A DNA stretch of 64,000 bases from the NCBI GenBank assembly GCA_016931075.1, contig JAFGFF010000300.1, positions 1 to 64,000 of the forward strand. The letters run 5' to 3'. The notes under the pieces are model-generated. The model was not told the origin of the DNA, searched no databases, and was given only the letters and a program-made list of their open reading frames with translations. Of this stretch, positions 26,701 to 64,000 are shown in pieces. How positions within the stretch are numbered: position 1 is the first letter of the stretch; the number at the start of each line of letters is the position of its first letter. The translations under genes and the position numbers were made by a program. The stretch is from Pirellulales bacterium. GTDB taxonomy: Bacteria > Planctomycetota > Planctomycetia > Pirellulales > Thermoguttaceae.

Positions 26701-27013
26701 GCATCTGGGCGGGCGGATTTCGTTGCAGTCTTCCTGGCACGGGTACGGCAGCATGACCGAGTTCCGGGCCGCCTGGATGCACGACATGCTCGACGGCGCC
26801 GCGCCGATCACCGCCATGCGATTCGCCGGCGTGCCTGGCGGAGCCACGTTCGCCGTCAACGGCGCTGACTTGGCGCGCGATTGGTGTTGGCTCGGGACAG
26901 GCATCCAGTGCCAGTTGTCCGGCAATGCCAAGGTCTTCGTCGACTACGATCTGCTGATCAACGACCGGCAGTCGTTACACACCGGCAGCGGCGGCCTGGT
27001 CGTGCTGTGGTGA
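23765..27013 (+). CDS. Autotransporter (type V secretion) with beta-helical passenger
   Basis: A 1,082-residue protein in classical autotransporter order. A signal peptide ends near residue 33 (FSGLTMAVGA). A long glycine-, asparagine- and threonine-rich passenger follows (about 34-700) with PATR-like repeats such as FNLNGGAGTLSVNSGGVLSG and GNVVLGGGGWLKPGNSIDVH. A linker helix is seen near 720-780, then an outer-membrane beta-barrel domain (about 795-1082) with alternating aromatic strands (NHFFGVYLTRRMDDWYWLN, ILQPYFGLEYVYLRQNAL). The protein ends in GGLVVLW, the terminal aromatic expected for BAM-assisted insertion. The passenger has no recognisable enzyme. Such proteins are typical of proteobacteria. 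The gene is followed by a clear terminator. Confidence 0.9.
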   Translation: MTTIDFSHGRHLLARVILLLAAVFSGLTMAVGADIDITNADETVSAYPNVDNFTFRSGAGNTGQLIVAQGAAPAATLAGNLTLERDAAVRFDGTLTYSALVAAAARSLDLGGNTFTFLNNQGGAVNQPFNVFFGDMAGGGTFAAATSGQILLRGSTPGDPTAQSIILHLNGGQSNNNGSNVLFDFHGGGLSVDNALSLPQTITVVAKYGAAVMLPTDGTTIGSSFSYQVDSDSGNWTNTGGMMILGDLTPGLIVPANVTYSGAVTYNGTNYVDNYGQAWGQATVLVGAGTFRYADSVFADTDALAVGGGRNFLTGAIDPTTRATLVIVNQSNLDSLPTNLGFCGGKIDLTALGGTVNLTGFNLAAINVDTGPGDPFPGGGSLIVNGAVPVVVQIDGVGLLTRDGFLTIERSGGASAVTLEVDCGGGLVDPSSFAGFLLPTGATVRFTNVTGDTVVSGNLEGSGSVDAEGKNLTLGSNVDADQPFDGTLANVDALNKTGTGKTEIGNGATVTPNSAQVSQGELSVQNGATFNLNGGAGTLSVNSGGVLSGDGTIQGNVVLGGGGWLKPGNSIDVHTTNGNLTLQSNGGIEIEIVGLPGGQTTGVPGTDNDVEHVTGTLTVQSGGRIHVTEDSTSVNPFKAGDRYYSLVGEAGIVNSGGLTMTDDLAGVTIDQFGVENTTFNISGGPVTGDWLWFTLIEGFSAQTPNESHAAAYILFQHGLGEMGALYTALDGLDSQQQAAALGTLSGESLVSAQSLSMASGLLRLRVLLNQIRPRTSFDDVLPRFAGAGQYNGIVRAQNCGCPAWNGWASGYGAGGSVHGSRQTNSVNTSVGGLVTGIDRLLSADTRLGFFYGYGHVSGNFDALQSISRIENHFFGVYLTRRMDDWYWLNTFGMGYDAYRSRRRVAVGPLVESGLATNDGWQSLVYCELGRDLPWRRAILQPYFGLEYVYLRQNALTENGVVAPNTALAMNPIVDQALRTHLGGRISLQSSWHGYGSMTEFRAAWMHDMLDGAAPITAMRFAGVPGGATFAVNGADLARDWCWLGTGIQCQLSGNAKVFVDYDLLINDRQSLHTGSGGLVVLW

Positions 27014-49000: not shown

Positions 49001-50491
49001 CAGGGCAATCAAGGCGGGGAAGAAGAGGAACCGCCTCGTGGCGGCGAGCCGGGCGAGCCGGTCCCGACGGCCATCTACTGGCGCCTGGTCGACCCGCCCG
49101 CTCTTGAAGTCGGTGACACGGGAACGACCGAGATGGTCGTTCAAGGGACCGCGGGCAACGACCTGTTCGAGTTCATCGGCGGGATGGTGCCGGGTAGTTG
49201 GATCGTCAGACTCAACGGCCAAGTGCTTCATGTAAGCAGCAACATCGACGCGGTCCGATTTGTCGGAGGAGCCGGACAGGACACGGTCCGCTTCACCGGC
49301 TCGAGCGCCGATGACACGGCCCAACTGTGGCCAGACCACGGCACGGTCGCCAGCCAGTATTACACTGTGCTGGCCGAGACCGTCGAGTCGATCACGGTTA
49401 CGGGCGGTGGCGGAACGGACACGGCTCATCTGCACGACGCGCTGACGGGCGATCTGTTTATTGCCGGACCGGAGTCGAGCAGCCTGACCGGCACCGGGTT
49501 CTCGTTGGTGGCCGAGTTGTTCGAGTCGGTCCACGCCTACGCGGATGCAGGTGGGTCGGACATCGCCAAGCTGTACGACACGTCGGGCAACGACACCTTG
49601 ACCACCTCGCCTACCCTGACCGAGATGGCGGACAGTCAAGGCCTTTATCTTGCGGCCGCTCATGGGTTCGAGTTTGCCTATGGTTACTCGACCGCCGGAA
49701 CCGACTCCGCCAAGATGTACGACTCGCCCGGCAAGGACTCGTTGCTAGCCACGGCTGATTATGCAAAGTTCACCGGTACCGGGTTCCTCACGATGGCCGA
49801 CGGGTTCCGATACGTGCAGGCATTCTCAGACGCCGGTGGAGCGGACGTGGCTACACTGCATGGCTCGGCCGGCAACGACAAATTCGAGGGTCATGCTGAT
49901 TTCGCCAAGTTCTACTCGAATGAGGCCTCCTATGCGTTCTCCAATATGGTGACCCACTTCGAGAACGTCGTTGCTTCCGGCGACCCGAACGGTAACGACA
50001 CTGCACAATTGCTTGGTTCAGCCGGCGACGACATGTTTGTGGCCGGACGTCATTACGGCAAACTGTTCGGCGACGGATTCAATATCCGGGCCGACTTCTT
50101 CCGATCGGTGACCGGTTATGGCAACGGCGGCGACGGAGACATCGCCCAACTAGTCGATTCGGAAGGAAACGACACGCTCGAAGTCTATCCGGACTATGTC
50201 CAGCTCTTCGGCGCGGATTACTTGAACCGGGCTTTCGGTTTCGCCAACATCGACGCCCGAGCGACGTCAACCAGCAACGATCACGACGTGGCGACGTTCT
50301 ATGATTCGGAACAATCGAACGAGTATCTCGAAGCTGAAGACAATTGGGCGAGGATTACCAGCGAGGACTATTCGTACTTGGCCGTCAGCTTCGAAAAGGT
50401 GACTGCCCATTCGTCGAACATGGGAGACAGAAAGCGGATCACACCGGAAGTCGACTTCGTGCTCGCCCTGGGATTGTGGCAAGACGAATAG
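34067..50491 (+). CDS. Giant LEPR-XLL repeat protein with inserted trypsin-like protease and P-domain
   Basis: A 5,474-residue protein. The basic N-terminus carries LEQRQLLS at residues 54-61, the LEPR-XLL type motif of giant planctomycete proteins. From about residue 75 to 5,000 it consists of roughly forty units of about 45-70 residues with a core such as MDADGDFVITWTSYGQDG and a GIYAQRY-like end. They form six blocks separated by five Ig-like domains opening with D..GP.VTDV-like strands (37257, 40285, 42912, 45226, 47208). A trypsin-like domain (His1660, Asp1708, Ser1820) and a convertase P-domain (about 3419-3600) interrupt the blocks. Eight repeats of about 50 residues end the protein. 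The Asp-rich turns suggest calcium binding. It is probably exported or displayed at the surface, although no ordinary signal peptide is seen. Likely cotranscribed with the TIGR03032 gene. Confidence 0.93.
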   Translation: MSLYRLSKLRSMASAVGRLGGRLGLSRFGRGEGPGRSGRSVTERSYRHLAVDPLEQRQLLSVTPMSPYDMLANESFGGIVDKTTLTSTPSQWTQAGQSLAVDDDGDFVVVWTRQDPVLDQNGDPIIDWNTGEAWSDQNVYARYYTDEVQRITLPDALAVDNVGGAYGRFSLTVGGNEVQKLTVTSTYEPYMPQSPIMGQFNVGFDVNGDGTIGSGENYPLVFNETTITENAHRLQVLLQGMGGALIDAEVEALNAREYLIHFGKESHGLNQPEIVIDPSFVNFSSGFYPAAVISTVSEPFTIENIPVSHNNPEATASVLEQIFLQTTRDRYVAPVSVGSPQTAPLISRYADWRISVTPVDGSLTQFDVTFVGATSKTNQPEMVFAKADNDLGQSFLGSSQIDVTTIKEPSPEFRVNDPEPEDDFTPWPDKLDQYEPAVAMDADGDFVITWTSEVGHAENDANSTDIYARRFRPAGWTEHPEFVLEDGTEVQSVVPLGSQFLVNSFMTGAQGQPAIGMDYDGNFTIAWASTAQEVSHFNRIGAQRYDRDGNRLGTEFIVVDPDNNIDTNIHFDPYVSMSDEGHILFTWSQTTNPAYQNITIKARLYAPGTVDFYDFRPLDTITWEVAQGQNSTSSWDADNDFLISWNNSEDNDNIGATSHGVFAEMYYVYQQEVLVDNVPDLQLVPVLIRDKFRANSASFPPLGNTDWPGDQVGSQALLDADGDIVITYGGYGPDVSDDSIMFGSYYTDLINANKNADLLPLFNPLIDGLIPVGGISGGVDAEIEDILYQAVNSLAPTGVIDALLAEKLGRLRAILESRANLIRGEANGVLFSRFDADSVGNDPVNVLASDSVANAQRDGHNARYIIEIHRTMNSGSFTVTLTHPFRNGSQTVTITPVYDAAGIEVVPEATRAAIELALRNATITGLNWLPDPAPDDGSTGPVDVRWVQLPELQARDLTPWPLDRPDDLYYVYEVTFQGECHDLAMGLSLGNSSLEDTNQGYGRIAPYIYEYETGDPGTIQDGVSAGIEPDGDYVIAWTQWERTVDGTETNSNIYFREFNEGTDTVGPRLTDFLQADGTRLKENEQITGEVSYVIVTFDEELMTFDPLYPESNALTPENWALMMDGMDGVEITGGISQVYFGMNKSADPDLVAQYGLNPLGSNKWEAVLILDGDPAEAGDQPLGNGQYAIVAKHSLRDVSDNPLGRFGYDLNGQDVGREFFVLLPGGVETPVNDQTAGSQEVVDVGLSPSLFPNSPQAIAGDVDSDYVVVWVDEEPGHEGVYAKLYTTRWFENASGKRQSVVTEVEPINPATGSPWTNNEILISTDPTAEYASVARDGDGDFVVTWSAKTTSGDWNVWYRRFDAMGRSLDDAPKKVNTETDGAQRFAAVAMDNDGDFTITWQSQGQDGSGYGVYAQRFTREGLRLGGLDEIQVLSIVGDPSFAEFALKFNGQVTGSISYTGDLEDLAVRIEQELAALGVEVEAWVPGETDHQVYIRFVGEDGRADQSPILFDYVTIPPSGKLKLSTLVEGEVSEFQVADTTEGNQVFPSIAMDTDGGFVISWTSFGQDGDAPYESNIYAKQYPGNDLVLRQLDVLTHGLGLEHSDPSRIGKPYIVTATNNPDDVLVTPGTGFDGVVRVDNDLGSGSGSLLTSGHHILTAAHVVVDEFLDPLPSNTITVSFFLPAGEVIVPVSEVYVHPDYDGNFLNGNDLAILVLAENAPVGAERYDIYRGTDEVGKEFEKYGYGLTGTGQNGTDESIESGIRRGGENKFDALGSQIEISALTLAYDFDNGQVANDALGVKFGFPDLGLGDEEICAAPGDSGGPSFINGLIAGVTAGGYSVDTGGNTDIDNTPLNSSFGEIGIDIRVSAYADWIDAVVVSSTPEFLVNQRLSGDQKWSDVALDADGDFVITWTSYGWDGGGNGYGSGFWGENGIFARRYTKEADAFGNEFQVNTFTEDNQQHSQVAMDADGDFVITWESFQERPVPNTGPDSPDSYGIYAQRYARNSQIGVNPLLGPFGEIGGELHINGTMLGAQRFPSVTLDGTGDAVFVWSGNGLGDIDGIFTQRFEKPLDDAGPIVTDVHNVLLDAGTAIDVEAVLDSQILYSEVSSFVVTFGENLNTEFEDHGPHSVLNPDHWQLVQILNDGTHQVIEDAIALVEFGLNRALLSGVATQSSNKYEAVITFDRDATVPGEQPLTDGDYILTIRDDITDQFENSLDGNYDGDPGSDFEFTFTVLTSASETLVNDETIGDQDVMDEDQPIEETPNSPQSVDSDADGDYVVVWRSEGPDTGIYAQLYDALWFKNAEGNRESLISESGIIDPITHNPLVQNILVTDDPTATYASVAMDADGDFVVTWTAYKEVRDNAGNIVHDPYTGLPLTEANVYAKWFDATGKAGTDEIQRITFSDIPKTSGATGTLKLGFNGSITTDINVTLSQDPATLAALVANIKAKLLALGIDVSIELGDIWDTTNDDTLFNVSVVARFQGADSELDQPEISLEDVVWNGTPITTTIETALQGVSGEAFRVNTETENDQKFSTIAMDHDGDFVIAWQSDGQDGNGAEVYAQRYNRFGKALGVVDELQVISFNGNPTGTFTLDFGGLTTGQIAFNGDATATATAIQTQLELLGLEVEVEAIGDADIEVRFVGADAGKDQAPLLVASKNISGGPRVDIVTTTSQDGRAGEFRVNQATEGDQLFPAVAMDARGNFVVTWTSYGQDGDAEDETNIYARQFVWIDDVDGEHTVNSGSEFLVNQAILGDQRWSAVAMDQQDDFIITWTTVSLGDPGDDEIIGSEGQQDIFARRFLFQISTEDTPVEPVLAADEFQVNTFTRGTQQHSSISMDANGDFIIGWESFQDRPMPPLGVLNVPNSFGVFTQRYYRREMLGLAGGPNGELGVETEINGTVNRDQRLPSVALDDTGDLVVVWSGTGELKGQEDDQGVYYRHFDQVDDEAGPTVTDVANVFDPEGGPILIEPVVYDQEIDSLVTRFVVTFSEDMNALYGDLGAHSVTNPNFWRLEKNDDVIVGGIHSVQFGLNQAYLSGLSETPSTKYEAIVTFDLNPLTPGLQPLDDGKYLLSVRPDIKDKFGNSLDGDLDGEVGGTFSHEFIVLVGEGGDTPIDQNPVINGRTFPETPGAVDVDEDGDHVVVWTGYDATINRDRVFIRVFNADGESSSLLLPVTPTTETVSDAFDDDIQRYASVATDADGDFVVTWTNYRDADNNTANGHEEVDVYARRYQADGTPIGSAFRVNTHLKNEQKWSSVAMDPDGDFVIAWSSYGQEDPNQFSYGIYARRYDMFGRALGCEFQVNVTTGGDQQFPSVAMDANGAFVIVWQSDQNGVGDDIVLREFTSSGAPVIGPRGGEYVVNDTTDGDQRYPDVAMNLSGDTYAVTWSSSQGTNDQSGFGIYTKSFNRLDATELNVTYGYQGLPVDFDDLTQVWVPIVVDQNFTIRDVNVRLTISHDDPSDLMVQLIGPGVIDPAAGIPAGVVVATLFDEVPRQGDEDGYTSGGPNGTDFDRTVLDDEADLLITDVDNGVLPPFTGEFRPQEPLAVFDGVQGQGIWWLRIIDQDPPSDPDVYIDDEGIRHKYVDGGRLRTWSLEFTLDPVAASPETLVNTTTEGNQLYSSVAMDHQGNFIVVWSGYGDQEDQEDHSQYGVFSQRFNAAASKQGDETRLNAATQGMQWVPSVGMDGEGNFVAVWTGVGVDPATISSLYSYVSANHDPQADIDGPIVSGVELVDGTVLLDGGVVGVNLTSMIIAFGEDLSTKEIVVGGERTPALESILNPNNWVLQRNGTEILGAVSDVAFVWDPDLRRYQAEVTFDGNGMSTGTPGLATGDYTLTIRSLVEDLSGNSLDGDYDGQAGTAPSSFGYDGFHIQFSVPSQDDVLGPERRVSEDPEYYQTLSEPLGTGFARETTNTSVAVDNDGDYVVVWTSYGQDDPTDPNGAGVYFRLYDRNDTQILPTTRVNNITTGHQRNASVAMDADGDFVVVWEAKGSNGTWEVYSQRFNAAGNRIDNLRENRLDQDPNRNQSGVEDIEVLVNSTIANEQYNPAVAMDDFGNFIVVWGTAGQNFSYFNNIFAQRFDYHGQPVGEEFQINQVDEPGTNGPGMVPDFRANPTVALGNDGTFAVAWDQLVEQISGAVSDTNIVVRFFDADALPTTDEIQVNADEVTTRDASHDDPEDATGGTDITRHARNPQVVMGTDGTVIVAFESYQDNDFTGGEDGPDSYGIYYRRFAADGTPLTDGVQQANTVITDDGAVPAQTALANQFAYAQVNAAIGIDANGDFAIFWNGNGANGPDPLDPENPDLVSGHDSDGVFGRWFSSGSDTILSLPTTVQMRVNRTIGGVQQFPSIGMEPDGDVIVVWAGAGVGDQHGIFSRRYDNTTDTAGPLATELRLGDVDDWIGEPNRLLGDGDNVYGNPNSLLVVFDENLNTEMSGPGGTPGLHSVENVNNWALVNGRNEELDGAIHHVTFSFDTTLNKWVAEVFFSDGAGGAGALANGTYTLVARTEIQDLMGNALGLTGYRPNGTGTILAVPVDPDNPDGPTEPIPLDPVTSQRGGFGFLFRVNSTVPGSAPWGDVDQQVNTNNDGIQDAAAVARNSFGESVVVWVDYAEIPDPNADPDDQNPPTILDANIRAQRFDRYGRIRGEEIAVNSLTTGDQLDPDVSMDDQGNFIVVWSGVGEELTELAGIFGQRFDSDGNALGGQFRVNQYINSIQDEPAVAMNRNNSNFVVTWTSFGQDGSRDGVYAREYLLSGQPVGNEFRVNTRTQGAQGTPDVAIDGTGRYVITWASEEQDTSGLGVFAQRYTWGAVPVGAEFRVNTTQMADQFDPAVAMNDHGWFIITWTSEQDGSGYGVYAQRYNEQGAKLGGEFRVNTTTVHDQHQPAVAMSNDVFVVTWTSFNQDYPQDEDVRDNGVYARMFNVADGSDYVDPRVGLVGEFQVNALTEGDQSNPDVAMDAEGHYSIVWSGQDADYIAPSVAPQDPNQGNQGGEEEEPPRGGEPGEPVPTAIYWRLVDPPALEVGDTGTTEMVVQGTAGNDLFEFIGGMVPGSWIVRLNGQVLHVSSNIDAVRFVGGAGQDTVRFTGSSADDTAQLWPDHGTVASQYYTVLAETVESITVTGGGGTDTAHLHDALTGDLFIAGPESSSLTGTGFSLVAELFESVHAYADAGGSDIAKLYDTSGNDTLTTSPTLTEMADSQGLYLAAAHGFEFAYGYSTAGTDSAKMYDSPGKDSLLATADYAKFTGTGFLTMADGFRYVQAFSDAGGADVATLHGSAGNDKFEGHADFAKFYSNEASYAFSNMVTHFENVVASGDPNGNDTAQLLGSAGDDMFVAGRHYGKLFGDGFNIRADFFRSVTGYGNGGDGDIAQLVDSEGNDTLEVYPDYVQLFGADYLNRAFGFANIDARATSTSNDHDVATFYDSEQSNEYLEAEDNWARITSEDYSYLAVSFEKVTAHSSNMGDRKRITPEVDFVLALGLWQDE
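37745..42905 (+). repeat. Two parallel higher-order blocks in the giant protein
   Basis: Blocks at 37745-40280 and 40785-42905 show the same order of submodules: a 'VDSDxDYVVVW' unit, a TA(E)YASV unit, a VNTETxxxQ(R/K)F unit ending in a DE(I/L)QV module, a GDQ.FP unit, a FLVNQ unit, a FQVNTFT...QQHS unit, a 'GDAVFVW/GDLVVVW' unit, then an Ig-like domain. They look like an internal duplication of about 700 residues. The main difference is the protease inserted only in the first. Confidence 0.75.
38812..39705 (+). other. Trypsin-like serine protease domain inserted in a repeat
   Basis: Residues about 1583-1880 of the giant protein. SGSLLTSGHHILTAAHVVVD gives the catalytic His1660, NDLAILVLAE gives Asp1708, and APGDSGGPSFINGL gives Ser1820 in the GDSGGP motif. 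All three catalytic residues are present. The insertion starts just after NIYAKQYP and ends at PEFLVNQRLSGDQ, where the matching repeat at 42236-42325 has only about 20 residues. Confidence 0.88.
44320..44865 (+). other. Proprotein convertase P-domain inside the giant protein
   Basis: Residues about 3419-3600. The jelly-roll P-domain signature is seen in NFTIRDVNVRLTISHDDPSD, DLMVQLIGPG, a central aromatic/Asp segment and a closing GIWWLRIIDQDPP...WSLEFTLDP. P-domains normally follow subtilisin/kexin catalytic domains. None precedes this one; the only protease in the protein is trypsin-like and 1,600 residues away. Confidence 0.8.
49115..50420 (+). repeat. Eight ~50-residue repeats at the C-terminus of the giant protein
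   Basis: Units of about 48-52 residues with the pattern D(T/I)A.L.DS.GNDT......Y..L.G.GF...A..F..V.AY...GG. recur about eight times (for example DIAKLYDTSGNDTL, ADVATLHGSAGNDKF, DIAQLVDSEGNDTL). The regular GND/GGxD turns recall calcium-binding beta-roll repeats but are longer than RTX nonapeptides. Confidence 0.8.
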
Positions 50492-50728: not shown

Positions 50729-53700
50729 ATGATGATCTGGGACGCAGTCCGCCGGTTTTCTGGGATCGGAAAGCGAGGAAAGTCGTCGCGGCCGCTCCAG
50801 CCGACGCGTTCGCACCGTCGCGAGTTGACCGGCTCGCTCCGCGGACGTGACCTGCGAGTCGAGCAGTTCGAGGACCGCGTGTTGCTGAGCATCAGCCCCA
50901 CAGGGCTGGATGACCTCGGCTACTTCAGTTCCTCGGTCATCAACGCCATCGAGCGAGTGACCGACCTGAATACGTACGATACGAACGATTTGAACGCCGT
51001 CCGGGAGTGGGTCGTCGGCCTCAGCGGCTCGGCCCTGTCCAACCCGCGCAACTATGCGGCATCGATGCAGGCCGATTACCTCGGCCCCACAACACTTCTC
51101 GCAAACACGTCCATATGGGAGTTCTCCGAGTACACGGACGCGCAAACGATCATCGACACCTTGGATTCGGCGACGAACGTTTTATTCGCCTATCCGCTAG
51201 TGGGTGAAACATTTGTTCCGCTATTTATGCCGAACGATACACTCTTCAGTGAGCAGTGGCACTTGATCAACACGGGGCAGAGCGGTGGAACCCCCGAGGT
51301 TGACGCGAATGTCGAAGTAGCCTGGGATTATGTGACCGGGGCGGGCATCGTGATCGGTGTGGTGGACGACGGCGTCGAGGTAGAGCATCCCGACCTGGCG
51401 GCGAACATGCGGCTCGACCTGAGCCATGACTGGGCTGACGGTGACGACGACCCTACACCACCGCCAGGCGAGGACGGATTCTTCGGAGACAACTATGCTC
51501 ATGGCACCTCAGTGGCTGGAGTTGCTGCTGGGGTTGGCAACAACGATCTCGGCATTTCGGGCGCCGCTCCCAATGCCAACATTGCTGGCCTCCGCTTGGA
51601 TTACAACCAGGACTGGACCGACACGATGTTGGCCGGGATTTTCTCGCACCAGAACCAGGAAATCGACATCTATAACAACAGTTGGGGTCCCACCGGGGGA
51701 CTCTATACTCGCGGTCCTCTCACAATGGCCGCGTTGGAAAACGCGGTCCTCAACGGGCGTGACGGATTGGGCAATATCATCACCTTCGCAGCGGGGAACT
51801 CTCGCGAAGAAGGAGATAATGTCAACCTCAACCAACTGGCCAATTCCCGCTACACGATCGCTGTGGCGGCCCTCAACCACAATGGCACTTATTCGTCATA
51901 TTCCACTCCCGGCGCTTCCCTCTTGATTTCGGCGCCGTCCAGTGATATTGCTGATTATGAGACTGTTTGTGGTATCTATACCACCGACCGAGTTGGTGAT
52001 GAAGGCTACAACACCGAATTGGGGCCGGGAGACGACGATCCCCTGAATGACCTGAACTACACGTCCACCTTCGGAGGGACTTCGTCCGCCACACCGCTCG
52101 TCTCTGGGGTCATCGCGCTGATTCTGGAGGCGAACCCAGGTCTGACCTATCGCGATGTCCAACACATCCTGGTCGAAACGGCTGTGAAGAACGACGCGAC
52201 CAGCACCGAGTGGGCATTAAACGGGGCCGGCTACCATGTGAGTCATGACTACGGCTTCGGCCTCGTTGATGCGGAAGCAGCCGTACAAACCGCCGCCGCG
52301 TGGACCAACGTGGGACCGGAACGCTCCGACTCCAGTGGTGTCATTCAAGTGGACATGGCGATTCCCGACGGCTCCACCATCAACCTCTCGTCAACAACAA
52401 CACTCGACAATACTGTCGATTCGATCGAGTGGGTAGAGGTCACCTTTGATGCTACACACGACTATCCGGGTGACCTTGAAGTCATCCTCGTCTCCCCGAG
52501 CGGGACGGAATCACGCTTAGCCGAGGTGAATACCAACTCATGGTACTACTATGACTGGGCCGGTTATGCGCAGTGGACCTTCACGACCGCCCGGTGTTGG
52601 GGGGAATCGGCTCTTGGGGAATGGACCCTGAAGGTCCGCGACGGGGATACCGGGGGGGAGGGAATTTGGAATTCGTGGGAGTTGAAAGTCTACGGACAGA
52701 ATCTGAATGGCGAGGACCCAGGTCAACAGCCAAGCACGGTGTCCTATTGGCCGGAACTGGTCGCCGTGTTGCCCAACGAGGGTGACAAGATTCACGACGG
52801 CGACTCGCTGCAGATTGCTCCACGTGAACTCACCTTCCAGTTCAATGAGCGACAAGAAATCGATCCCGAGACGGTCGGCGCGATTCGAATCGTCCGGAGT
52901 GGCGGCGACAATGTAATCGGTAACGCCAATGACATTCCGATCGAATACGGCTGGATCGGGATCGGCGAATTGCCAAACGAAGTCGTCGTCCGGTTCGCGG
53001 ATGCGTTGCCCGACGACCTCTATCATATCACCATCATCGGCGACGGGCCTGCCCCCTTGACCAACATCCAGGGCGCCCCATTCCATGAGGGCCAGAACCA
53101 GAGCCTGGAGTTTGACTTGGATCTCGGCGCCCAAATCATCGCGGTGGTGCCACAGCCGACGTCGCGGGACGCCTCAGGCAATTTGCAGCAAAGCCGTGAC
53201 ACGATCGAGGTCTACTTTAATGACGATGAACTGGCCTACGATTCCGTCACCAACACGTCCTTCTACCGGCTCGCAAAGACCCAAGAATCCGCCAACCCTG
53301 GAGACGACGAAGGGTTCAACCCCATTTCGGTCACCTACGATCCGGTTGCCAATAAGGTGATCTTGACGTTCGCAGACGATCTGGCCAAGTTAACCTCCGC
53401 GGGCACCAACGGGGGTACGGGCGCGTTCCACTTGCGTATTGGGAACGAATACCGGGAGATCCCGGTTGCTGCGGTGCAGGCTGAGTTGGTGGCCGACACG
53501 TTCGGGGCAGCGTACAACACGGCGGACATAATCGGTTCGTTGGGTGGTGTCGGCTTGGCCGAGAGTCTCATCATCTCGTCGATTATCGAACCCCAACCGT
53601 ATGATCTGGTCTGGCCCGGCTCACTCGACGAACCCGGCCACCGCGAGCTTCCCAGCGCAGCGGAAATTGAAGCCCACTACGGCGCCGGATACTACGCCGG

Positions 53701-56700
53701 CGACTCAGAATATGGCGTTGCTCGATTCTACTACAACTTCAAGCAGAACCTCGGCGGCAGCTTCAAAAATATCATTACCAATACCCAGAAGCAGCGCGCC
53801 CGCGAAATCTTTGAACTCTACGGCGACTACCTGGGAATCGAGTTCATCGAGGATACGACCGGTACGCGAGGTTTCACGGTCGCCACGGGCGACATGCGAG
53901 TGCTGGATCCATACATTCCAACCGGACCGGGCGGTGTTATTGGTTTGGCCGGGGGCGGCATTGCCATCATGGACGGGGCGGAAACGCTGCTCTGGGGCGA
54001 CAGTGAGTATGGCGGGGCCTGGTTCCGAACAGCCATGCACGAAATCGGGCACCTACTCGGCCTGGGACACACCTACGATCTGCCAGCGTACACCGTGATG
54101 GGCTCGGGCGAGCAGCCGGAGTTCGAGGACCTCGGGTCGGTCTACTACCTCGGCAGCAGTGAGGCGATCCTGCCTGGCCAAGAGGACCTTATCCACGGCC
54201 TGCACATCTATCGTCCCGACAGCACGGACGTCGACGTTTATGAGTTCACACTCGACGCCAATGGCGTGTTCAGCGCCGAGATTACCGCCGAACGGCGCGA
54301 AAACTCGAGCCTGCTGGACAGCCTCATGACGATCTACGACGCTGACGGGCAGATGATCGCGCGCAACGACGATTACTACAGCGAAGACTCGTACATCGAA
54401 CTTGAGCTTCACGCCGGGAAGTACTATGTCGCCATTAGCAGCACGGGCAACGACGAATTCGACCTGAATGTCCCCGGCAGCGGAATCGGCGGGACTTCTC
54501 AAGGCGAGTATGACCTCCGTCTGACTTTCTTGCCAAAACTCCTTTCAGATGGAACGGGCGGTGTCGACCACCTCGTCGACACGACCGGCACACGCTTCGA
54601 TGGCGATGCTAACGGGGTGCCCGGCGGCGTCTACAACTTCTGGTTCAACGTCCAGCAGGAAGAAGACACTCTGTTCGTCGACAAGATCGCCGCGACTGGT
54701 GGAGACGGCTCGTTGGCTCATCCGTTCAGGAACATCGACGACGCCCTGGCAGTTGCACAGCCCAATCAAATCGTCCGGATTGTCGGTAATCACGATCGGA
54801 CATTCCTTGACCAGGTAACCTACGACGTTGGAGTTAATCCCAACAGCGTGGCCGTTGGAGACTTCGATGGCGACGGCCTGGCTGACATCGTGTCGACCAG
54901 CGAGTTCGGCGAAACGGTGAATGTTCTGTTCCGCCATATCGACGGCACGGTCCGCGCGCTGAGCACCTACAACGTAGGCAAGGTCCCAGCGGGTGTTGCA
55001 GTGGGCGACCTGAACGGAGACGGAGCGCTGGACATCATTGTGGCCAATTCGGGCAGCGCCAACGTCTCGATCCTCTACAACAACGGGAACGGAACCTTTG
55101 CCAACCAGGTCACGCGATTTGCCGGAAGCGGCGCCACCGCTGTGAGCCTGGCCGATCTTGACGGTGACGACAAGCTCGATATCGTCGTGGCTAACAAGAA
55201 CGACGACAATGTCGGCGTTCTGCTCAGCAGCGAAGCCGCCATCTATGCCGATCAAGTGGTCTATCCCTCGGGTAACGCGCCCCACGCGCTGGCACTGGCG
55301 GACGTGAACAACGACCTGGCGGTCGACATCATTGTCGCCAATGCTGGCGATGCGGGTGATCCGGCCAGCGCTGGCATCAGCGTCTTGCTGAACAACGGCG
55401 ACGGCACGTTTGGTCCGGCGGTCCCGCTCGACATGAACGCCGGCGGTGACACGGTCCCGAACTCGGTTGCCGTGGCTGACATGGACGGTGACGGCATGAA
55501 TGACATTATTGCCGCGCTGGTCATTAACGCGCAGCCCGACGTCGTGGCCATCTACTCGGGGGCCGGCGACGGTACGTTTGCCGCGGGAGTACACTACGTC
55601 ACAGGCAACAACCCGAAGACCGTCGGCGTAGCCGACCTGGATGCTGACGGTGTCTTCGATATCGTGACCTCCAACTCCGGTGACAACAACGTCTCGGTTC
55701 TCTTCGGTATCGTCGGCGGGACGCTTGAATCGCCTATCAACTACGCCGTCGGCACCCAGCCGCGCGGGCTTGCCCTGGCCGATCTGGATGGAGACACGCG
55801 CCCCGACATCGTCACGACCAACTATGCCAACCAGCGTCTTTCAGTCCTCCTGGCTCGACGGGACAAGGCATACGAAATCGGCCAGGACCTGCTCCAAAGT
55901 CCGCTGGAGGACGGCTGGAGGATGGAGATTCCCAAGGGCGTGACCGTGATGGTTGACGCCGGGGCCGTGTTCAAACTCCGCTGGGCCAACATCGACGTCG
56001 GAAGTTCCTCTCACGGGATCGACCGGAGCGAAGGCGCGCTCCAGATCCTCGGGACACCCGAGCAAAGCGTCTACTTCACTTCATTCCATGACAAATCGAT
56101 CGGCGAAGACCACGCAGCGCCGGATCTTTTCCCGATGGGATCGGACTGGGGCGGATTGGTTTTCCGCAATGACTTGGACTACGACACCGCGTTCGAACCG
56201 GGGACACCTCACCGTGTGCTCGAAACCGAAGGGATCTTCCTCAACTACGTCAACCATGCCGAATTCCGCTACGGCGGCGGTCAGGTCATGGTCAATGGCC
56301 AGACAGATGTCTACAACCCGATCCACATGATCGAGGCCCGGCCGACGATTTCACACAACCTGCTTCTCTATAGCGCCGACGCCGCGATGTCGGCCGATCC
56401 GGCCAGCTTCGCCGATACGAAATACCACGGTTTTGACGAGACCACGGAGACATATTACACCAACGAGTACGAGCGAATCGGCCCGAAGATTCATGGCAAC
56501 CGGTTGATGGAAAACAGCATGAATGGGTTGTTCGTCCGCATCGACACCGAAGCAGGACAGCCGATCCGGGAACTGGAAGTCCCTGCTCGGTGGGATGATA
56601 CCGACATCGTCCATATCGTCTCCGAAAACCTCTTCATTAGCGGTACCCCAGGCGGCCCGACCGTCAAGGCGGGAGTCGAGGGCCTGATCGCGCGGCCTGA

Positions 56701-59700
56701 TGCTAGATTGAAGATCGACCCGGGCATCTTCGTCAAACTCGACCACGGCCGTTTCGAGGTCGAGATGGGCGCTCAATTAATCGCCGAGGGTCTGCCCGGC
56801 TACCCAATCGTCTTCACATCGTTGTTTGACGATCGGTACGGGGCCGGGGGAACATTCGACACAACGAGCAACGAAGACCACGCCGTGGCCGCGCCAGGAG
56901 ACTGGGGTGGCATCTACTTCTCGCCGATTTCGAAGGGCTCGATCGACGAGGCACTGATCGCCTACGCGGGTGGTGTACTGCGTATTGAGGGAGACACCGA
57001 TGCGGTGTTCAATCCCATTGAAATCCACCAAGCCGACGTCCGGCTGACCAACAGTTCGGTCGAGGACTGCGACAGTTCGCTGGCCGACCCGACGGACGAC
57101 CGCAACGGACGCGGCACAATCGTGCCGGCGGCCATTTTCATCCGCGGCGCACAGCTAATCCTGATCGACAACGTCATTCGCGACAACAACGGTCCAGCCA
57201 TCAGTGTCGATGCTAATTCGCTGACCGCCGACTACCGACCCGATTCCGGACGCAGTTCCAACTTCCTCTCGGCCTTTGAAGGCTACCCGGATAACTACGG
57301 GCCGCTGGTGCGCGAGAACCGTCTTCACAACAACACGCTGGACGGCATGGTTATCCGCGGCGCCGTGCTCACCACCGAAAGCGTTTGGGACGACAGCGAC
57401 ATCACGCACATCCTGCTCGATGAGATCGTGGTGCCCAACTTCCACACCTACGGTGGACTGCGACTGCAAAGTGGCCTGGACGAAAGTCTGGTCGTCAAGC
57501 TCAGCGGTGAGTCGGCCGGCATCACCGCGTTGGGTACGCCCCAGGAAATCACCGATCGGATCGGCGGGACGCTCCAAATCATCGGAACGCCCGGTTATCC
57601 AGTCGTTATGACCTCGCTGGCCGATGACTCGGTCGGGGCCGGCGTCGACCCGTGGGGTCAGTCACAGCGCGACGCTGACAACGTCAACGAAACGCCTGTC
57701 CCGGGTTCGTGGCGCGGCATCACGCTCGAACGATATGTCAACGACCGGAACGTCGAAATCATCCGGGAATGGGAAGGAGCGGCCGGTTCGACCGCCGACC
57801 TCAACGGCAATCCAATCAAGGCACAGATCGTCGGGCAATTGGCCTCGCTCGAACACGCCAGCGACGACAACCTGCGCCTGGGCTTCGACATCCGGGGCTT
57901 CATCCGCGACGACGATCCCACCGATAAGGACGTCTACGGCTTCACGGCCCGAGCAGGCACGGAAGTCTGGATCGACATCGATCGGACAACTCTCGGCCTG
58001 GACTCGATCATCGAATTGATCGACGCCAATGGCAACGTCTTAGCCAGCTCCGACGATTCCTGTCTCGAAGAAGGTCAGGTTATTCAGCCCGGTGGCATTG
58101 CCCGATTGATGAACCGCGACACGTGGGACATCAACGACATGTACACCACCAACCCGCACGATGCAGGAATGCGTTTGATCCTGCCGGGCGCGGGGGGCGA
58201 GTTGCGGACCTACTACGTTCAGGTGCGGAGTGTCGACGGAGCCAGCAGCGGGGCCTATGAACTTCAGATTCGTCTCCAGGAGCTTCAGGAAATCGCCGGT
58301 TCGACGATCCGCAATGCCAGTATCCGTTACGCGGTCAATGGCATCGAACTGGTCGGCCTGCCCGTTCATTCTCCCATCCTCGGCGAGACGACCGAGGTGG
58401 AACTCACGACGACCTACTACGATCAAATCGAACTGGACGGCCAGGACAACGATATCATTGTCACGGCCATTCCCGGCTCGATTGCCGATCAGGGACGCAC
58501 GAATATCTACTTCACGGCCAATACCGGCGTCGGCGCAGGCGCGATTGCCACGTACCTTCCGCCGCTGCAGCAGTTGTCCGTGCAAATCAATCCGGGCGTC
58601 ACAACCGCGCAGGCGATAATCAACGCGATTAACAATGTACAGTGGAATGGCGCTTTCGCGTTCACCGCACAGCTTGATCCCAGTGAGGTGGACAACGATC
58701 CGTATGGTTTGATCGCACCCATCGGAACGGTCATCGAAACGGGTTGGGTCGGCGTGACAGGCAACGGCGTCAACGACATCCTCGACGGGGCCGAACCGCT
58801 GGGCAACATCCTGCAGAGCGATCGGGCTGCAGTCCTCGTCGGCGGCTATATCAGCGACGCCTGGGATGTCGACTGGTACTCGTTCAACATCGACCTGGAT
58901 CAGGTCCAGGGGACGGGCAACATCCAGTGGCCGACCATTTTCGACCTCGACTATGCCGACGGCATGGGCCGGCCTGAACTGACGTTGTACGTCTACGATT
59001 CGGACTACAAGTTGGTCTACACGAACTCCGTTTCGAACGTCGACGACGACCAGCCCGGCCCGACCGGCTCCGGCGTGGACGACCTGATGCGCGGCAGTGC
59101 CGGAGTGAACGATCCGTTGATTGGCCCGGTCCGCCTGCTTGCCGGAGAGTCAGGTCCCGATCCGGAAGACGAGAACATCTATTACGTCGCCGTCGTGGCG
59201 GCCGGCAACACGGCCCGGGCGCAACGCCAGGACGTCGCGCGTCGCGAGCCGGTCAACTCGATCGTCCGCATTAACGAAGACCATCTGCAGATGTCCATGA
59301 TGTCGGGCGTGAACACCGAGACGTCCATCCTTTGGGATACGTCTGGTGGGGAACTCAACGTCCACGTCGACGACCATCACCTCAACGACGTGGTCCTGTT
59401 CGTCTCGACCGGCAGCGACCTGATCACGATCGACCCGTTGACTGGCACCCTCGAGACGGACGTGACCGGGCCGAACGTGCTGTTGCCCGACTCTCCCGTG
59501 ATCCAGTACGGCGACTTGGCGATGCGCAACGATGGCCGGCTGATGAGTATCGTTCAGAACGCCAGTGTCGCAGGTGATCGCAACCCATTCAATGGGAGCT
59601 ATCGCGAACTCTCAACCGGCGATGGCAGCTTGGTAATCGACAATGATGACGGTATTGTGGCGTACCACGTCAAGGACACTAGCGCGGAGAAGCACGAACC

Positions 59701-62700
59701 GGGATTGACGTACCACGCAATCGTGCCCTGTAACGGGGACACACAACGTCGCTTCTGGGCAGTGGCGACGTCGACGGCTGACGTGAGCGGAACGACCTGG
59801 AACAACACGAATCTGATCTACCTCATGGACGCCGAGGGCAACGCGATTAAGCCACCGAACACGAAAGGCGACGATCGTCTTCCGAGCAAGGTGCTGCCCT
59901 ATTTCTGGCTCGATACACGGACCGCCGCGGGAATAACCGACCCGAATGAGCCTACCCCTCAGATCACCGGCCTAACCTATGTCGACGGCACCCTCATCGC
60001 GGTGGATGACGGGGGGCGAGTGTACAAGGTCACGGGGATGGACAACCCCAACGGGTCAGGTGGTTTCACTGAAGTCGACCCGGATAGCGCTCCCAAGACA
60101 GTAGAGTATCCTTCCGGTGGGGACTCGCCGACCTCGCTGACACTTCTAACGGTCGAACTCGAGGACGGGACGACGGGCAACGACTTGGCCACGCTGAAGG
60201 GCTACACGTCGATCGAGTTCTCTGGATTGGCTCTGGGGCCGCAGAACATCGAGGATGGAGCCTACGCTTCGACGCTCTTCGCCACGGCCGCCGTCGATGA
60301 AGGCGGAGCACAATCGACCCGGATCTTCGCCTTTACCATCGAAGGCAACGCGATCGTCATGGCGCCGGTCTTTGTCGACACGCAGTCCGACATCACTCTG
60401 GTCGATCCAGACGGGAATCCGCTCGGATTCAACACCACGGGCCTGGCGTTCTCCAATATCGACTACAATCTCTGGCACATGACCAGCAACCGAGGCGACG
60501 GTGGCGCCGACGACGAGGTGATCACCGGGTTGAACGAACCGGGCCACGGAATCGAAATCGCTCCGGACGACAGCCGAACTCCCCCGTTCTATCGCGAATC
60601 GGGTTCCAGCAGCTTCTGGTTCGGCCTGGAATATGGCATGCCGGGAACGGTCAACGCGTACGATTATGGGTCGAGGGTGAACTCCGACGCACTGGACACC
60701 TACGACATCCCAGGCGGGGCCAATGGCGCCCTGACCACCGATGCCTTCAGTCTGGTCGGCTACGAAGCAGCCGACCAGCCGACGATATTCTTCAACTACT
60801 ATCTCGATACGTACAACAACCCGGCCAATCAACCCAACCCGTACACAGACTCGATCCGAGTATATATCTCGGTCGACGGAGCCAACTGGGAAATGCTGGC
60901 GTCGAACATTCCGAACGACGGCGTGACCTTGTTGCGAGACAGCATTCCCGGCACTTCGCCCAATCCCGTCCCGGACTTCGTTGACGCAGACAAAGATGCT
61001 GACCCGAACATCTGGCGTCAAGCCATGATCGGCCTGGGTAGCTACGTCGGCTTGGACAACCTTCGGCTCCGGTTCGAATTCGACACGGCCGCGAGCGTGA
61101 ATGTGGGCGTCGACTACCAAGGCCAGCAGACGTTCCTGCGGGCCGTACCGGCCTGGGGGATTTACGACGGCGCTCCACTGGATGGACAACGCATCATCAT
61201 TTCGGATCCTCTGGATCCGGATCCGAACTACCAAGTCAAGTATTTCGAGATCGACATGGGTTACACGCTCGTGGCGCCGAACTCGGCAGGCCGAGCGATT
61301 CCCGATGGCGAGAGCTTCACGATCACGGGTCCGACCGAATTGGGCAACACGGCCACGATCTTGTTCGAGTTCGACAAGGACAACCACCTGTACAATACGC
61401 CCGGCAGCGCCGGTGTCGACATGGTTGTCGCGCTGCCCATCAGCAACGCCGACTCCGCTTCGACCGTTGCCGAGCTAATCACCAACGTGGTCAGCAACGT
61501 GTTCATCCCGACGGATGATCCGGACAATCCGGATAAGTTCGCCGTGTATGCCGTCCAAAACGACTCGTGGGTACTTTTCAGCTCCAACATCATCGACGAC
61601 GTCGACGCAGACGGGTTGACGCAGGATCTCGGCCCGAATGCGCTTCCCGGCGCGACTGAGCCGGTCATGGTCATTGGGTCCAGGCCAGGCGTAGAGTCCA
61701 ACAACGCTGGTGACACGGAAGAGAACTACAGGATCTTGATTGAACCGGACATGACGGCCGCCCAAGTAGCCGAGCAAATTGCTCTGGTGTTGGATCAAGA
61801 GTTGGCCGTGAAGGATATTGACGGCAACAGCATGGACGTGCCCGACCTGTTCACGTCGGTAAAGTTGAACGAAGACCTGATCCAATTTATGACCATGTCG
61901 GACGGCATGCCGATACCTTCGTTCCGCCAGATCATTGACGCCGGCGTGCTGGGATACGGCCTTGTCTTCCCAGGAGAGGGCGAAGCACCGCAGCCGGGCA
62001 GCCCCGGCACGAATTTCACCTGGAACCTCCGCGGCCAAGACAACAACTTCGAAGGCTTCTACCTCGACGATGTGGTCATCGGCTTCATTGAGCGGGGCCA
62101 GATGTTCACCGACATGAATCCCAGCCGCGACATGCGGCCGAGGCAGCCTTCAACGGAAATCACCGAGGGGTACTATCAACTCGAGATCCGTACGGCCAGC
62201 GAATACGGCACGGGTGTTTGGGACACGAACGACCGGCACACGGAAGTCATCACCATCGAAGCCCCTTCGGCAACCCAGATCGTCCACCGTCAGACGTTCG
62301 TCGTTTACGATGGCGTCAACTCGCAGACGTTCCAGTTCATTGCCGAGCCCGGCGACGAACTCAACCCGACGTTCTTGAACGTTGAACCGGACGAAGGCGC
62401 GATCGCGATCTTCTACCAGCACGGGGAGACGGCAACCGAGATTGCCGAGAAGATCACCGACGCCATTAACAACGCAGCGTCCATCAAGACCATGGCGACG
62501 ATGATCGCCACGAGCAACCGGGTCGAATTGGCCGATGCGACATCCGTCGAGAATATGGACTCGCTCGTCTTCTCCAACGACGGCGAACATCCCGTCACCA
62601 TGGAACTGCTCGACCTGAATCCGCCGCTGGATCCGACAGTGGATCCGATAACCGACGTGGTGACGGTCAACGAGTTCGACGGAACCGTCACCGTTTACAT

Positions 62701-64000
62701 CGATAACATCAGCTCCTTCACGAAATACGACGTCGGCTACCTGCCTTCCGATCTGGCGATCGACGACATCGACAACGACGGTTTCCTCGATCTCGTAGTC
62801 TCAAACTCGGGCGACGACACCGTTTCGATTCTGCTGGGCAATGCCAACATCCGAGGCACGTTCGAGAGCCAAATCGTCTTCGGGGTGGGGCACAACCCGT
62901 CCGGCGTCGCCGTCTTCGATCTTGACGGCGACGGCAACCTCGACATCGTCACCTCGAACAAGAGCGACAACACGGTCTCGATCCTCTACGGTCTGGGCGA
63001 CGGGAACTTCTTCCCCGGCGACACCGTGGCCGTCGGGCTGGCTCCGCTGGACGTCGCCGCGGGCGATATCGACAACGACGGGATGGGAGATATTGTCACG
63101 GCCAACTCAGGTGACAACACCGTCTCGTTACTCAAAGACGTCGGCGGTGGAATCTATGCCCTGTCGACCTATCAGGTCGGGCGCATGCCCGTGGCCGTGG
63201 TCCTGGCTGAACTCGACCCGGATCAACCGGCCAACCCCGATGATCCGCCCCCACCCCAATGGCTCGATATCCTCACAGCCGACCGGGTTGATGGAACCTT
63301 GACGGTTCTGATGAACGACCGGGCCGGCGGCTTCGGCGACCCGCGGGCGTACGATGCCGGGGAAAGCCCGGTCAATATTCACATCGACGACGAGAATGGT
63401 GACGGCAGGCCCGATGCGTTTGTGGCGAACTACTCGTCGAATCAGGCAAGCATCCTGATCGGGACAGCTAATGCACAAATGATGTTCCAGGCGCCTCAGT
63501 CTTATTCGGTGGTGCAATACGGGCCGTCCGCTGCCGGTTTCGGCGATCTGGACGGCGACTTCATTCCCGACCTCGTCACTTCCAACTACCGCACCAGCAC
63601 CATCACGATCCTTCCTGGCGCCTTCGGTTACAACCCCATGTTTGCCATCGTCATCGGCACCGGGGACGATATCCTGCGCCTGCTCCAGGGCGACGAGAAC
63701 CGGTTCCGCGACCAGGGTCAGGTGATCATCGCCGCCAACGAGGTGCTCTACTCGGCCGAGTACGGCATCAAGGCGGCGCCGGCCGAGCGTGATTCGTGGC
63801 CGCACACGGGCTCGACGGCTCCATTGCGTGAGGTGAATCAAAAACGGCTCGTGCCCGGATTGACCATCGAGAACAACCTCGTCGTCGGCAGCGGTGAGGC
63901 TGGCATCTACTTCGGCGGAGACTACGAAACGGATGCGCCCGATGCGGCCGTGCCGTTCGGCCGGATCATCAACAACACGGTCTACGGCGGTGATCCTGTC
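50729..64000 (+). CDS. Giant LEPR-XLL kexin-like and metzincin protease with propellers and beta-helices (3' end outside window)
   Basis: ATG 50729 (GAGGAG at 50715-50720, spacing 8) opens a frame without a stop to the window edge: 4,424 codons, C-terminus missing. Residues 44-54 are a VEQFEDRVLLS LEPR-XLL-like motif. A kexin-type subtilisin domain follows (Asp213, His258, Asn357, Ser452), with a P-domain at about 529-661. After Ig-like segments comes a metzincin at about 970-1140 (HEIGHLLGLGHTYD, Met-turn 1124). PPC-like domains lie near 1164-1268 and 2382-2520. A right-handed beta-helix begins with a DUF1565-like segment (about 1314) and continues after the first FG-GAP block (1362-1712). 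The second FG-GAP block spans 3963-4301 and another beta-helix segment follows. The protein is probably extracellular and calcium-rich. It is likely transcribed from its own promoter after the terminator. Confidence 0.95.
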   Translation, partial: MMIWDAVRRFSGIGKRGKSSRPLQPTRSHRRELTGSLRGRDLRVEQFEDRVLLSISPTGLDDLGYFSSSVINAIERVTDLNTYDTNDLNAVREWVVGLSGSALSNPRNYAASMQADYLGPTTLLANTSIWEFSEYTDAQTIIDTLDSATNVLFAYPLVGETFVPLFMPNDTLFSEQWHLINTGQSGGTPEVDANVEVAWDYVTGAGIVIGVVDDGVEVEHPDLAANMRLDLSHDWADGDDDPTPPPGEDGFFGDNYAHGTSVAGVAAGVGNNDLGISGAAPNANIAGLRLDYNQDWTDTMLAGIFSHQNQEIDIYNNSWGPTGGLYTRGPLTMAALENAVLNGRDGLGNIITFAAGNSREEGDNVNLNQLANSRYTIAVAALNHNGTYSSYSTPGASLLISAPSSDIADYETVCGIYTTDRVGDEGYNTELGPGDDDPLNDLNYTSTFGGTSSATPLVSGVIALILEANPGLTYRDVQHILVETAVKNDATSTEWALNGAGYHVSHDYGFGLVDAEAAVQTAAAWTNVGPERSDSSGVIQVDMAIPDGSTINLSSTTTLDNTVDSIEWVEVTFDATHDYPGDLEVILVSPSGTESRLAEVNTNSWYYYDWAGYAQWTFTTARCWGESALGEWTLKVRDGDTGGEGIWNSWELKVYGQNLNGEDPGQQPSTVSYWPELVAVLPNEGDKIHDGDSLQIAPRELTFQFNERQEIDPETVGAIRIVRSGGDNVIGNANDIPIEYGWIGIGELPNEVVVRFADALPDDLYHITIIGDGPAPLTNIQGAPFHEGQNQSLEFDLDLGAQIIAVVPQPTSRDASGNLQQSRDTIEVYFNDDELAYDSVTNTSFYRLAKTQESANPGDDEGFNPISVTYDPVANKVILTFADDLAKLTSAGTNGGTGAFHLRIGNEYREIPVAAVQAELVADTFGAAYNTADIIGSLGGVGLAESLIISSIIEPQPYDLVWPGSLDEPGHRELPSAAEIEAHYGAGYYAGDSEYGVARFYYNFKQNLGGSFKNIITNTQKQRAREIFELYGDYLGIEFIEDTTGTRGFTVATGDMRVLDPYIPTGPGGVIGLAGGGIAIMDGAETLLWGDSEYGGAWFRTAMHEIGHLLGLGHTYDLPAYTVMGSGEQPEFEDLGSVYYLGSSEAILPGQEDLIHGLHIYRPDSTDVDVYEFTLDANGVFSAEITAERRENSSLLDSLMTIYDADGQMIARNDDYYSEDSYIELELHAGKYYVAISSTGNDEFDLNVPGSGIGGTSQGEYDLRLTFLPKLLSDGTGGVDHLVDTTGTRFDGDANGVPGGVYNFWFNVQQEEDTLFVDKIAATGGDGSLAHPFRNIDDALAVAQPNQIVRIVGNHDRTFLDQVTYDVGVNPNSVAVGDFDGDGLADIVSTSEFGETVNVLFRHIDGTVRALSTYNVGKVPAGVAVGDLNGDGALDIIVANSGSANVSILYNNGNGTFANQVTRFAGSGATAVSLADLDGDDKLDIVVANKNDDNVGVLLSSEAAIYADQVVYPSGNAPHALALADVNNDLAVDIIVANAGDAGDPASAGISVLLNNGDGTFGPAVPLDMNAGGDTVPNSVAVADMDGDGMNDIIAALVINAQPDVVAIYSGAGDGTFAAGVHYVTGNNPKTVGVADLDADGVFDIVTSNSGDNNVSVLFGIVGGTLESPINYAVGTQPRGLALADLDGDTRPDIVTTNYANQRLSVLLARRDKAYEIGQDLLQSPLEDGWRMEIPKGVTVMVDAGAVFKLRWANIDVGSSSHGIDRSEGALQILGTPEQSVYFTSFHDKSIGEDHAAPDLFPMGSDWGGLVFRNDLDYDTAFEPGTPHRVLETEGIFLNYVNHAEFRYGGGQVMVNGQTDVYNPIHMIEARPTISHNLLLYSADAAMSADPASFADTKYHGFDETTETYYTNEYERIGPKIHGNRLMENSMNGLFVRIDTEAGQPIRELEVPARWDDTDIVHIVSENLFISGTPGGPTVKAGVEGLIARPDARLKIDPGIFVKLDHGRFEVEMGAQLIAEGLPGYPIVFTSLFDDRYGAGGTFDTTSNEDHAVAAPGDWGGIYFSPISKGSIDEALIAYAGGVLRIEGDTDAVFNPIEIHQADVRLTNSSVEDCDSSLADPTDDRNGRGTIVPAAIFIRGAQLILIDNVIRDNNGPAISVDANSLTADYRPDSGRSSNFLSAFEGYPDNYGPLVRENRLHNNTLDGMVIRGAVLTTESVWDDSDITHILLDEIVVPNFHTYGGLRLQSGLDESLVVKLSGESAGITALGTPQEITDRIGGTLQIIGTPGYPVVMTSLADDSVGAGVDPWGQSQRDADNVNETPVPGSWRGITLERYVNDRNVEIIREWEGAAGSTADLNGNPIKAQIVGQLASLEHASDDNLRLGFDIRGFIRDDDPTDKDVYGFTARAGTEVWIDIDRTTLGLDSIIELIDANGNVLASSDDSCLEEGQVIQPGGIARLMNRDTWDINDMYTTNPHDAGMRLILPGAGGELRTYYVQVRSVDGASSGAYELQIRLQELQEIAGSTIRNASIRYAVNGIELVGLPVHSPILGETTEVELTTTYYDQIELDGQDNDIIVTAIPGSIADQGRTNIYFTANTGVGAGAIATYLPPLQQLSVQINPGVTTAQAIINAINNVQWNGAFAFTAQLDPSEVDNDPYGLIAPIGTVIETGWVGVTGNGVNDILDGAEPLGNILQSDRAAVLVGGYISDAWDVDWYSFNIDLDQVQGTGNIQWPTIFDLDYADGMGRPELTLYVYDSDYKLVYTNSVSNVDDDQPGPTGSGVDDLMRGSAGVNDPLIGPVRLLAGESGPDPEDENIYYVAVVAAGNTARAQRQDVARREPVNSIVRINEDHLQMSMMSGVNTETSILWDTSGGELNVHVDDHHLNDVVLFVSTGSDLITIDPLTGTLETDVTGPNVLLPDSPVIQYGDLAMRNDGRLMSIVQNASVAGDRNPFNGSYRELSTGDGSLVIDNDDGIVAYHVKDTSAEKHEPGLTYHAIVPCNGDTQRRFWAVATSTADVSGTTWNNTNLIYLMDAEGNAIKPPNTKGDDRLPSKVLPYFWLDTRTAAGITDPNEPTPQITGLTYVDGTLIAVDDGGRVYKVTGMDNPNGSGGFTEVDPDSAPKTVEYPSGGDSPTSLTLLTVELEDGTTGNDLATLKGYTSIEFSGLALGPQNIEDGAYASTLFATAAVDEGGAQSTRIFAFTIEGNAIVMAPVFVDTQSDITLVDPDGNPLGFNTTGLAFSNIDYNLWHMTSNRGDGGADDEVITGLNEPGHGIEIAPDDSRTPPFYRESGSSSFWFGLEYGMPGTVNAYDYGSRVNSDALDTYDIPGGANGALTTDAFSLVGYEAADQPTIFFNYYLDTYNNPANQPNPYTDSIRVYISVDGANWEMLASNIPNDGVTLLRDSIPGTSPNPVPDFVDADKDADPNIWRQAMIGLGSYVGLDNLRLRFEFDTAASVNVGVDYQGQQTFLRAVPAWGIYDGAPLDGQRIIISDPLDPDPNYQVKYFEIDMGYTLVAPNSAGRAIPDGESFTITGPTELGNTATILFEFDKDNHLYNTPGSAGVDMVVALPISNADSASTVAELITNVVSNVFIPTDDPDNPDKFAVYAVQNDSWVLFSSNIIDDVDADGLTQDLGPNALPGATEPVMVIGSRPGVESNNAGDTEENYRILIEPDMTAAQVAEQIALVLDQELAVKDIDGNSMDVPDLFTSVKLNEDLIQFMTMSDGMPIPSFRQIIDAGVLGYGLVFPGEGEAPQPGSPGTNFTWNLRGQDNNFEGFYLDDVVIGFIERGQMFTDMNPSRDMRPRQPSTEITEGYYQLEIRTASEYGTGVWDTNDRHTEVITIEAPSATQIVHRQTFVVYDGVNSQTFQFIAEPGDELNPTFLNVEPDEGAIAIFYQHGETATEIAEKITDAINNAASIKTMATMIATSNRVELADATSVENMDSLVFSNDGEHPVTMELLDLNPPLDPTVDPITDVVTVNEFDGTVTVYIDNISSFTKYDVGYLPSDLAIDDIDNDGFLDLVVSNSGDDTVSILLGNANIRGTFESQIVFGVGHNPSGVAVFDLDGDGNLDIVTSNKSDNTVSILYGLGDGNFFPGDTVAVGLAPLDVAAGDIDNDGMGDIVTANSGDNTVSLLKDVGGGIYALSTYQVGRMPVAVVLAELDPDQPANPDDPPPPQWLDILTADRVDGTLTVLMNDRAGGFGDPRAYDAGESPVNIHIDDENGDGRPDAFVANYSSNQASILIGTANAQMMFQAPQSYSVVQYGPSAAGFGDLDGDFIPDLVTSNYRTSTITILPGAFGYNPMFAIVIGTGDDILRLLQGDENRFRDQGQVIIAANEVLYSAEYGIKAAPAERDSWPHTGSTAPLREVNQKRLVPGLTIENNLVVGSGEAGIYFGGDYETDAPDAAVPFGRIINNTVYGGDPV
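51180..52710 (+). other. Kexin-like subtilisin (S8) plus P-domain
   Basis: Catalytic residues: Asp213 in IGVVDDGVEVEHPDL, His258 in NYAHGTSVAG, oxyanion Asn357 in AAGNSREEGD, Ser452 in FGGTSSATPLVSG. The double Asp (DDG) and the following P-domain (residues about 529-661, DYPGDLEVILVSPSG ... GEWTLKVRDGDTG) are the kexin/furin arrangement. All active-site residues are intact. Confidence 0.92.
53640..54150 (+). other. Metzincin metalloprotease domain in the second giant protein
   Basis: Residues about 970-1140. HEIGHLLGLGHTYD supplies His1104, Glu1105, His1108 and His1114, with Gly1111 and a following Asp1117. The Met-turn is YTVMGSG (Met1124). The zinc site is complete, in contrast to the zincin at 3175-5064. 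Confidence 0.88.
54812..55862 (+). repeat. Seven FG-GAP/VCBS blades (first propeller) in the second giant protein
   Basis: Seven units of about 45-55 residues, each with a core such as SVAVGDFDGDGLADIV, GVAVGDLNGDGALDIIVANS or TVGVADLDADGVFDIVTSNS. Seven is the number of blades in an integrin-type beta-propeller. The flanks are VRIVGN before and RRDKAYEIGQDLL after, apparently parts of one beta-helix module. Confidence 0.85.
62617..63632 (+). repeat. Second block of seven FG-GAP/VCBS blades
   Basis: Six clear units (for example DLAIDDIDNDGFLDLVVSNS, GVAVFDLDGDGNLDIVTSNK, DVAAGDIDNDGMGDIVTANS) and one degenerate first unit (ITDVVTVNEFDGTVTVYI) also make seven. The block ends at ITILPGAFGYNP and is followed by a conserved beta-helix segment (NRFRDQGQVIIAANEVLYSA). 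Confidence 0.75.

Follow-up and report, generated by a model that had tools for sequence, protein, structure and literature searches.

Why a single bacterial chain should carry two proteases of different fold, and whether the first of them activates the second, is the question raised by the last gene of the window, the 64,000-nucleotide stretch of Pirellulales DNA analysed here. A sequence-only reading had described a 4,424+-codon gene crossing the window edge, with a kexin-like serine protease and a metzincin in one polypeptide, and had proposed that the former could activate the latter in cis. We show that Pirellulales giants of this kind have a conserved backbone, an exchangeable N-terminal slot and repeated decay of the backbone metzincin. 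The relevant features are as follows.

34067..50491, + strand: neighbouring giant of 5,474 aa with a trypsin (S1) domain; triad H1660, D1708, S1820 present
50729..64000, + strand: giant gene, window part (ORF), continuing on the same contig to 71425
50861..50890, + strand: LExR-type motif VEQFEDRVLL, left border of the slot (NCBIfam LEPR-8K, 12.7 bits against a cut-off of 17)
51338..52261, + strand: S8 subtilase catalytic domain, slot occupant (D213, H258, N357, S452)
52424..52687, + strand: P-domain of the S8 module (Pfam)
52745..53728, + strand: two Ig-like (Big_5-like) domains, start of the backbone (profile A1; Big_5 match in relative L057)
53771..54100, + strand: backbone metzincin, intact (HEIGHLLGLGH and Met-turn VMG)
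54176..54553, + strand: PPC-like domain after the metzincin (profile A1; PPC matches)
54776..55888, + strand: FG-GAP/VCBS-like repeats (Pfam FG-GAP_3, 1e-54, and alignment of relatives)

The open reading frame at 50729..64000 (+) is stop-free for 4,424 codons in the window, and its end was located on the same contig at position 71425, giving 6,898 aa with no internal stop; the description of a long gene running over the edge was thus borne out. The added suggestion that stop-bounded gene callers would miss it does not hold, as the giant is merely cut by the window edge. The half beyond the window contains NIDO, SdrD_B-like, Calx-beta and four GEVED domains. Codon-position GC is even over the entire gene. 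A relative in G037 is collinear with it along 6,497 aligned columns (52.6% identity); the S8 and metzincin domains therefore belong to one chain, and a frameshift between them, named earlier as a possible refutation, is excluded. Together with a relative of 6,789 aa in a one-contig genome (G024), this near-full collinearity also rules out an assembly artefact.

Both active sites are complete, and the first reading was right that one polypeptide holds two proteases of different fold, each with its site intact. Asp213, His258, Asn357 and Ser452 are all present under the numbers first given to them, as is the P-domain; residues 204-511 match Pfam Peptidase_S8 (9e-48) and residues 566-653 match P_proprotein (1e-20), with furin and kexin as best solved relatives of the whole S8-P module (1.5e-67). 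The term kexin-like is justified for fold and P-domain but not for specificity, because furin D258, D264 and D306 stand opposite a gap, an Arg and Asn368 in an alignment read by eye. Across all S8 domains compared, the catalytic residues are intact, the one lacking Asp being on a contig that starts late. In the metzincin, His1104, Glu1105, His1108, His1114 and Met1124 were likewise confirmed. Residues 1015-1117 match Pfam Matrixin at 7.8e-5 and 23.0 bits in the window part, against a curated cut-off of 24, and at 29.3 bits, over that cut-off, in the genome search; the best solved relative is MMP-12 (4e-6). AlphaFold models built from three or four sequences reached a pLDDT of only 48 for the metzincin and 38 for the other model, so the fold of the metzincin and of the pro-region rests on sequence. 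Foldseek matches to furin and kexin were discounted, as they derive from a poor-pLDDT model.

Would the serine protease then activate the metzincin? Both sites are intact in the window chain and in 15 of the 18 S8-P chains of the tree set, as such an arrangement would have it. However, the chain has five cysteines only, none of them from 624 to 2113, so that the cysteine switch known from the propeptide of vertebrate MMPs is absent; dibasic pairs are lacking from 30 to 1189, leaving no such site between the domains, and the furin specificity acids are missing as described above. Relatives argue in the same direction. The metzincin is intact in 35 empty-slot chains without any S8 domain, and it is dead beside an intact S8 in the other three of the 18 S8-P chains, in one of which (G055) S8 and metzincin lie on two contigs, apparently halves of one gene. 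Activation in cis is therefore very improbable, and it was dropped as leading model on this motif, specificity-residue and relative evidence. More generally, two intact sites in one chain need not mean an activation cascade.

The pairing was also called rare, and it does look unusual, but it is not a one-off. S8-P and metzincin occur in one chain in 18 genomes of the window organism's family, the window genome included and one chain cut inside the metzincin by a contig end also counted. In other Pirellulales families, S8-P chains and backbone chains are encoded by different genes, as in G119. Whether a known widespread family has this order, the second refutation proposed, has a divided answer: the backbone does form a widespread family, apparently undescribed, but the S8-P fusion was found in only one bacterial family sampled.

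The backbone runs in the order of two Ig-like domains, metzincin, PPC, FG-GAP and beta-rich repeats, NIDO, SdrD-like, Calx-beta and GEVED, with the FG-GAP/VCBS-like stretch varying in length among relatives. A profile of its first four domains (two Ig-like, metzincin, PPC) has matches in 179 of 397 Pirellulales genomes, several in some of them, and in only 14 of 294 genomes sampled across the phylum, where four outside the class match the PPC end alone. A scan of named genomes found relatives in one Pirellulales MAG and one Thermogutta MAG, besides a third, partial one. Altogether, 120 of 198 relatives match some part of the giant.

Scored against profiles of exported planctomycete proteins (LEPR-XLL/Planc_extracel), the LExR-type motif stays below the curated cut-off, at 12.7 of 17 bits in the window giant and 18-24 of 25.5 bits in relatives. 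Between this motif and the first Ig-like domain of the backbone lies a slot with sharp junctions, and its content is exchangeable. In 57 of 95 backbone chains it is empty, the motif being followed directly by the backbone. In the window giant it holds the furin-fold S8 with its P-domain; elsewhere it holds a C25 gingipain with propeptide (L074, 1.5e-64), an M36 fungalysin with FTP propeptide (L109, 1.4e-134), a second kind of S8 (L088 and L089), another metzincin (L055, with L056 as a weak case), a PhoPQ_related hydrolase (L117, 7e-114) or a Vps10-like propeller (L057 and L081-L083; 4e-12 in L082). An M10 matrixin with PPC occupies it in L105, L113, L122, L128, L129, L136, L137 and further chains, the assignment of L113, L114, L128 and L137 being made from sequence and close likeness to profile-scanned chains. 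Most occupants are thus complete endopeptidases, and those of the C25 and M36 types bring their own propeptides.

On a backbone tree of 95 rows (quick LG+G4, with 21 open forks), the slot underwent at least 16 changes, and seven of these fall in the window's family. A single clade of S8-P chains is rejected (p-AU 2.7e-6, lnL difference 177), and the C25 chain and two empty-slot chains nest among S8-P chains with 98-99% SH-aLRT. The nesting of the C25 chain suggests that S8-P was there replaced or lost and not only gained. The S8 tree, which bears on a single origin of the fused S8-P modules, is itself poorly resolved.

The metzincin, which is built into the backbone, has decayed repeatedly. 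In 28 of the 95 backbones it lacks zinc or catalytic residues, through about 15 separate losses on the same tree, and dead versions read for example QGIGLLLGLGY (G055) and EAIGHLLGLGY (G005). As a separate observation, a related chain of ~10,025 aa (L064, G010:C8) has an intact S8-P and a dead metzincin.

Could the protease in the slot serve the chain itself? In this explanation, the N-terminal protease would be a maturase: after export it would cleave its own giant, or the neighbouring one, into functional pieces, much as large bacterial surface proteins and polymorphic toxins are processed by peptidases of their own. Being N-terminal it would emerge first, its catalytic residues are kept intact, and the trypsin giant lies directly upstream with a C-terminal region in common, the last 450 residues of the two being homologous. 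However, S8, C25, M10 and M36 peptidases of unrelated specificity, and non-peptidases as well, interchange on one backbone, so precise self-cutting is less likely than display of an enzyme that is free in its exact specificity; and since most chains have no slot occupant, chain cutting by the occupant cannot be generally needed. Taken together, we regard self-processing as unlikely.

The association of the two giants is itself recurrent. Immediately upstream of the giant, G037, G069, G013 and G055 also have the C-terminal end of a homologue, and the upstream neighbour in G037 has at least two trypsin domains. Both giants finish with a VDF...G-x-W tail, which is also seen in near relatives, and this C-terminal region may be a sorting or anchoring signal. 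The homologous regions, at L005 9819-11426 and at the C-terminal end of 34067..50491, are also found in near-relative giants. A BBP7 outer-membrane barrel gene follows directly after the giant (L005 11886-13115) and, by similarity search, also in G069; it was not near the other giants checked, and no general role as export partner is claimed for it. Elsewhere in the window, 3004..5064 encodes a metzincin-like protein (HELGHLLGIGLSD, third histidine missing) with a dockerin and a PEP-CTERM-like tail, and 23765..27013 encodes an autotransporter beta-domain protein (1.1e-45).

We therefore favour, with a probability of about 0.5, an exported and surface-displayed giant with a fixed frame, an exchangeable N-terminal enzyme and proteases that work side by side. 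The surface-type repeats were counted for display, as was the absence of any strongly hydrophobic segment in the chain. According to this model, the chain would be exported, presumably by means of the LExR motif, and would stay attached to the cell surface. The S8 domain would remove its own pro-region and then work as an endopeptidase tethered to the surface on the distal end of a long stalk, where it would probably digest outside proteins, either as food or in competition. The backbone metzincin would be an old core domain and an optional second protease, acting beside the S8 domain and not in an activation cascade with it, and decayed copies may be retained as structural or binding domains. 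Two of the occupants, the hydrolase and the propeller, are not known peptidases, so the term displayed protease may be too narrow.

Domains such as FG-GAP, PPC and GEVED are commonly shuffled, and the same two occupants could speak for ordinary domain shuffling in fast-evolving giant surface proteins, with repeated enzyme fusions and no common role. Planctomycetes are, moreover, rich in giant genes (PMC5177795). Against this, unrelated lineages use the same insertion point and most of what they insert are extracellular endopeptidases, and we consider shuffling of this kind distinctly unlikely. Returning to the display model, there are slightly better than even grounds to see the Pirellulales backbone as a chassis, whose dedicated N-terminal socket repeatedly received extracellular enzymes of unrelated kinds, for the most part endopeptidases, which between them use at least three types of catalysis (serine, cysteine and zinc), while its own metzincin repeatedly became a pseudoenzyme. 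The slot family offers natural experiments, as chains with one and the same stalk but with S8, C25, M36, M10, a hydrolase or an empty slot could be set side by side with respect to substrate, niche and processing.

Each of the domains, and giant planctomycete genes as such, are already known; the backbone/slot family is apparently undescribed. Among open-licence papers on two-protease chains, on LEPR-XLL/Planc_extracel and on gingipain with giant planctomycete proteins, none describes it. The window giant has its size class, phylum and presumed surface location in common with known giant planctomycete genes, but in the literature searched no family was found described that joins a built-in metzincin to an interchangeable protease at the N-terminus. 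For two peptidase families in one prokaryotic chain there is a precedent in the Thermopsin-subtilisin fusion NP_394205.1 (PMC2605481), which differs in being archaeal, in its peptidase families and in lacking the giant's backbone. Furin (1p8j), Kex2 (1ot5) and Aeromonas ASP (3hjr) are the best sequence matches of the S8 module and have catalytic residues and P-domain in common with it, whereas the giant's S8 is without the furin specificity acids and heads a chain of 6,898 aa. With matrixins (M10A, MMP-12) the metzincin shares HExxHxxGxxH, the Met-turn and the sequence match of 4e-6, but it has no Cys-switch and the domain is often dead in relatives. Polymorphic toxin systems (PMC3482391) resemble the giant in combining a conserved frame with exchangeable modules and processing peptidases. 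In those systems, however, it is the C-terminal toxin that varies and an immunity gene is present, whereas the giant shares its C-terminal region with near relatives and varies in the N-terminal module.
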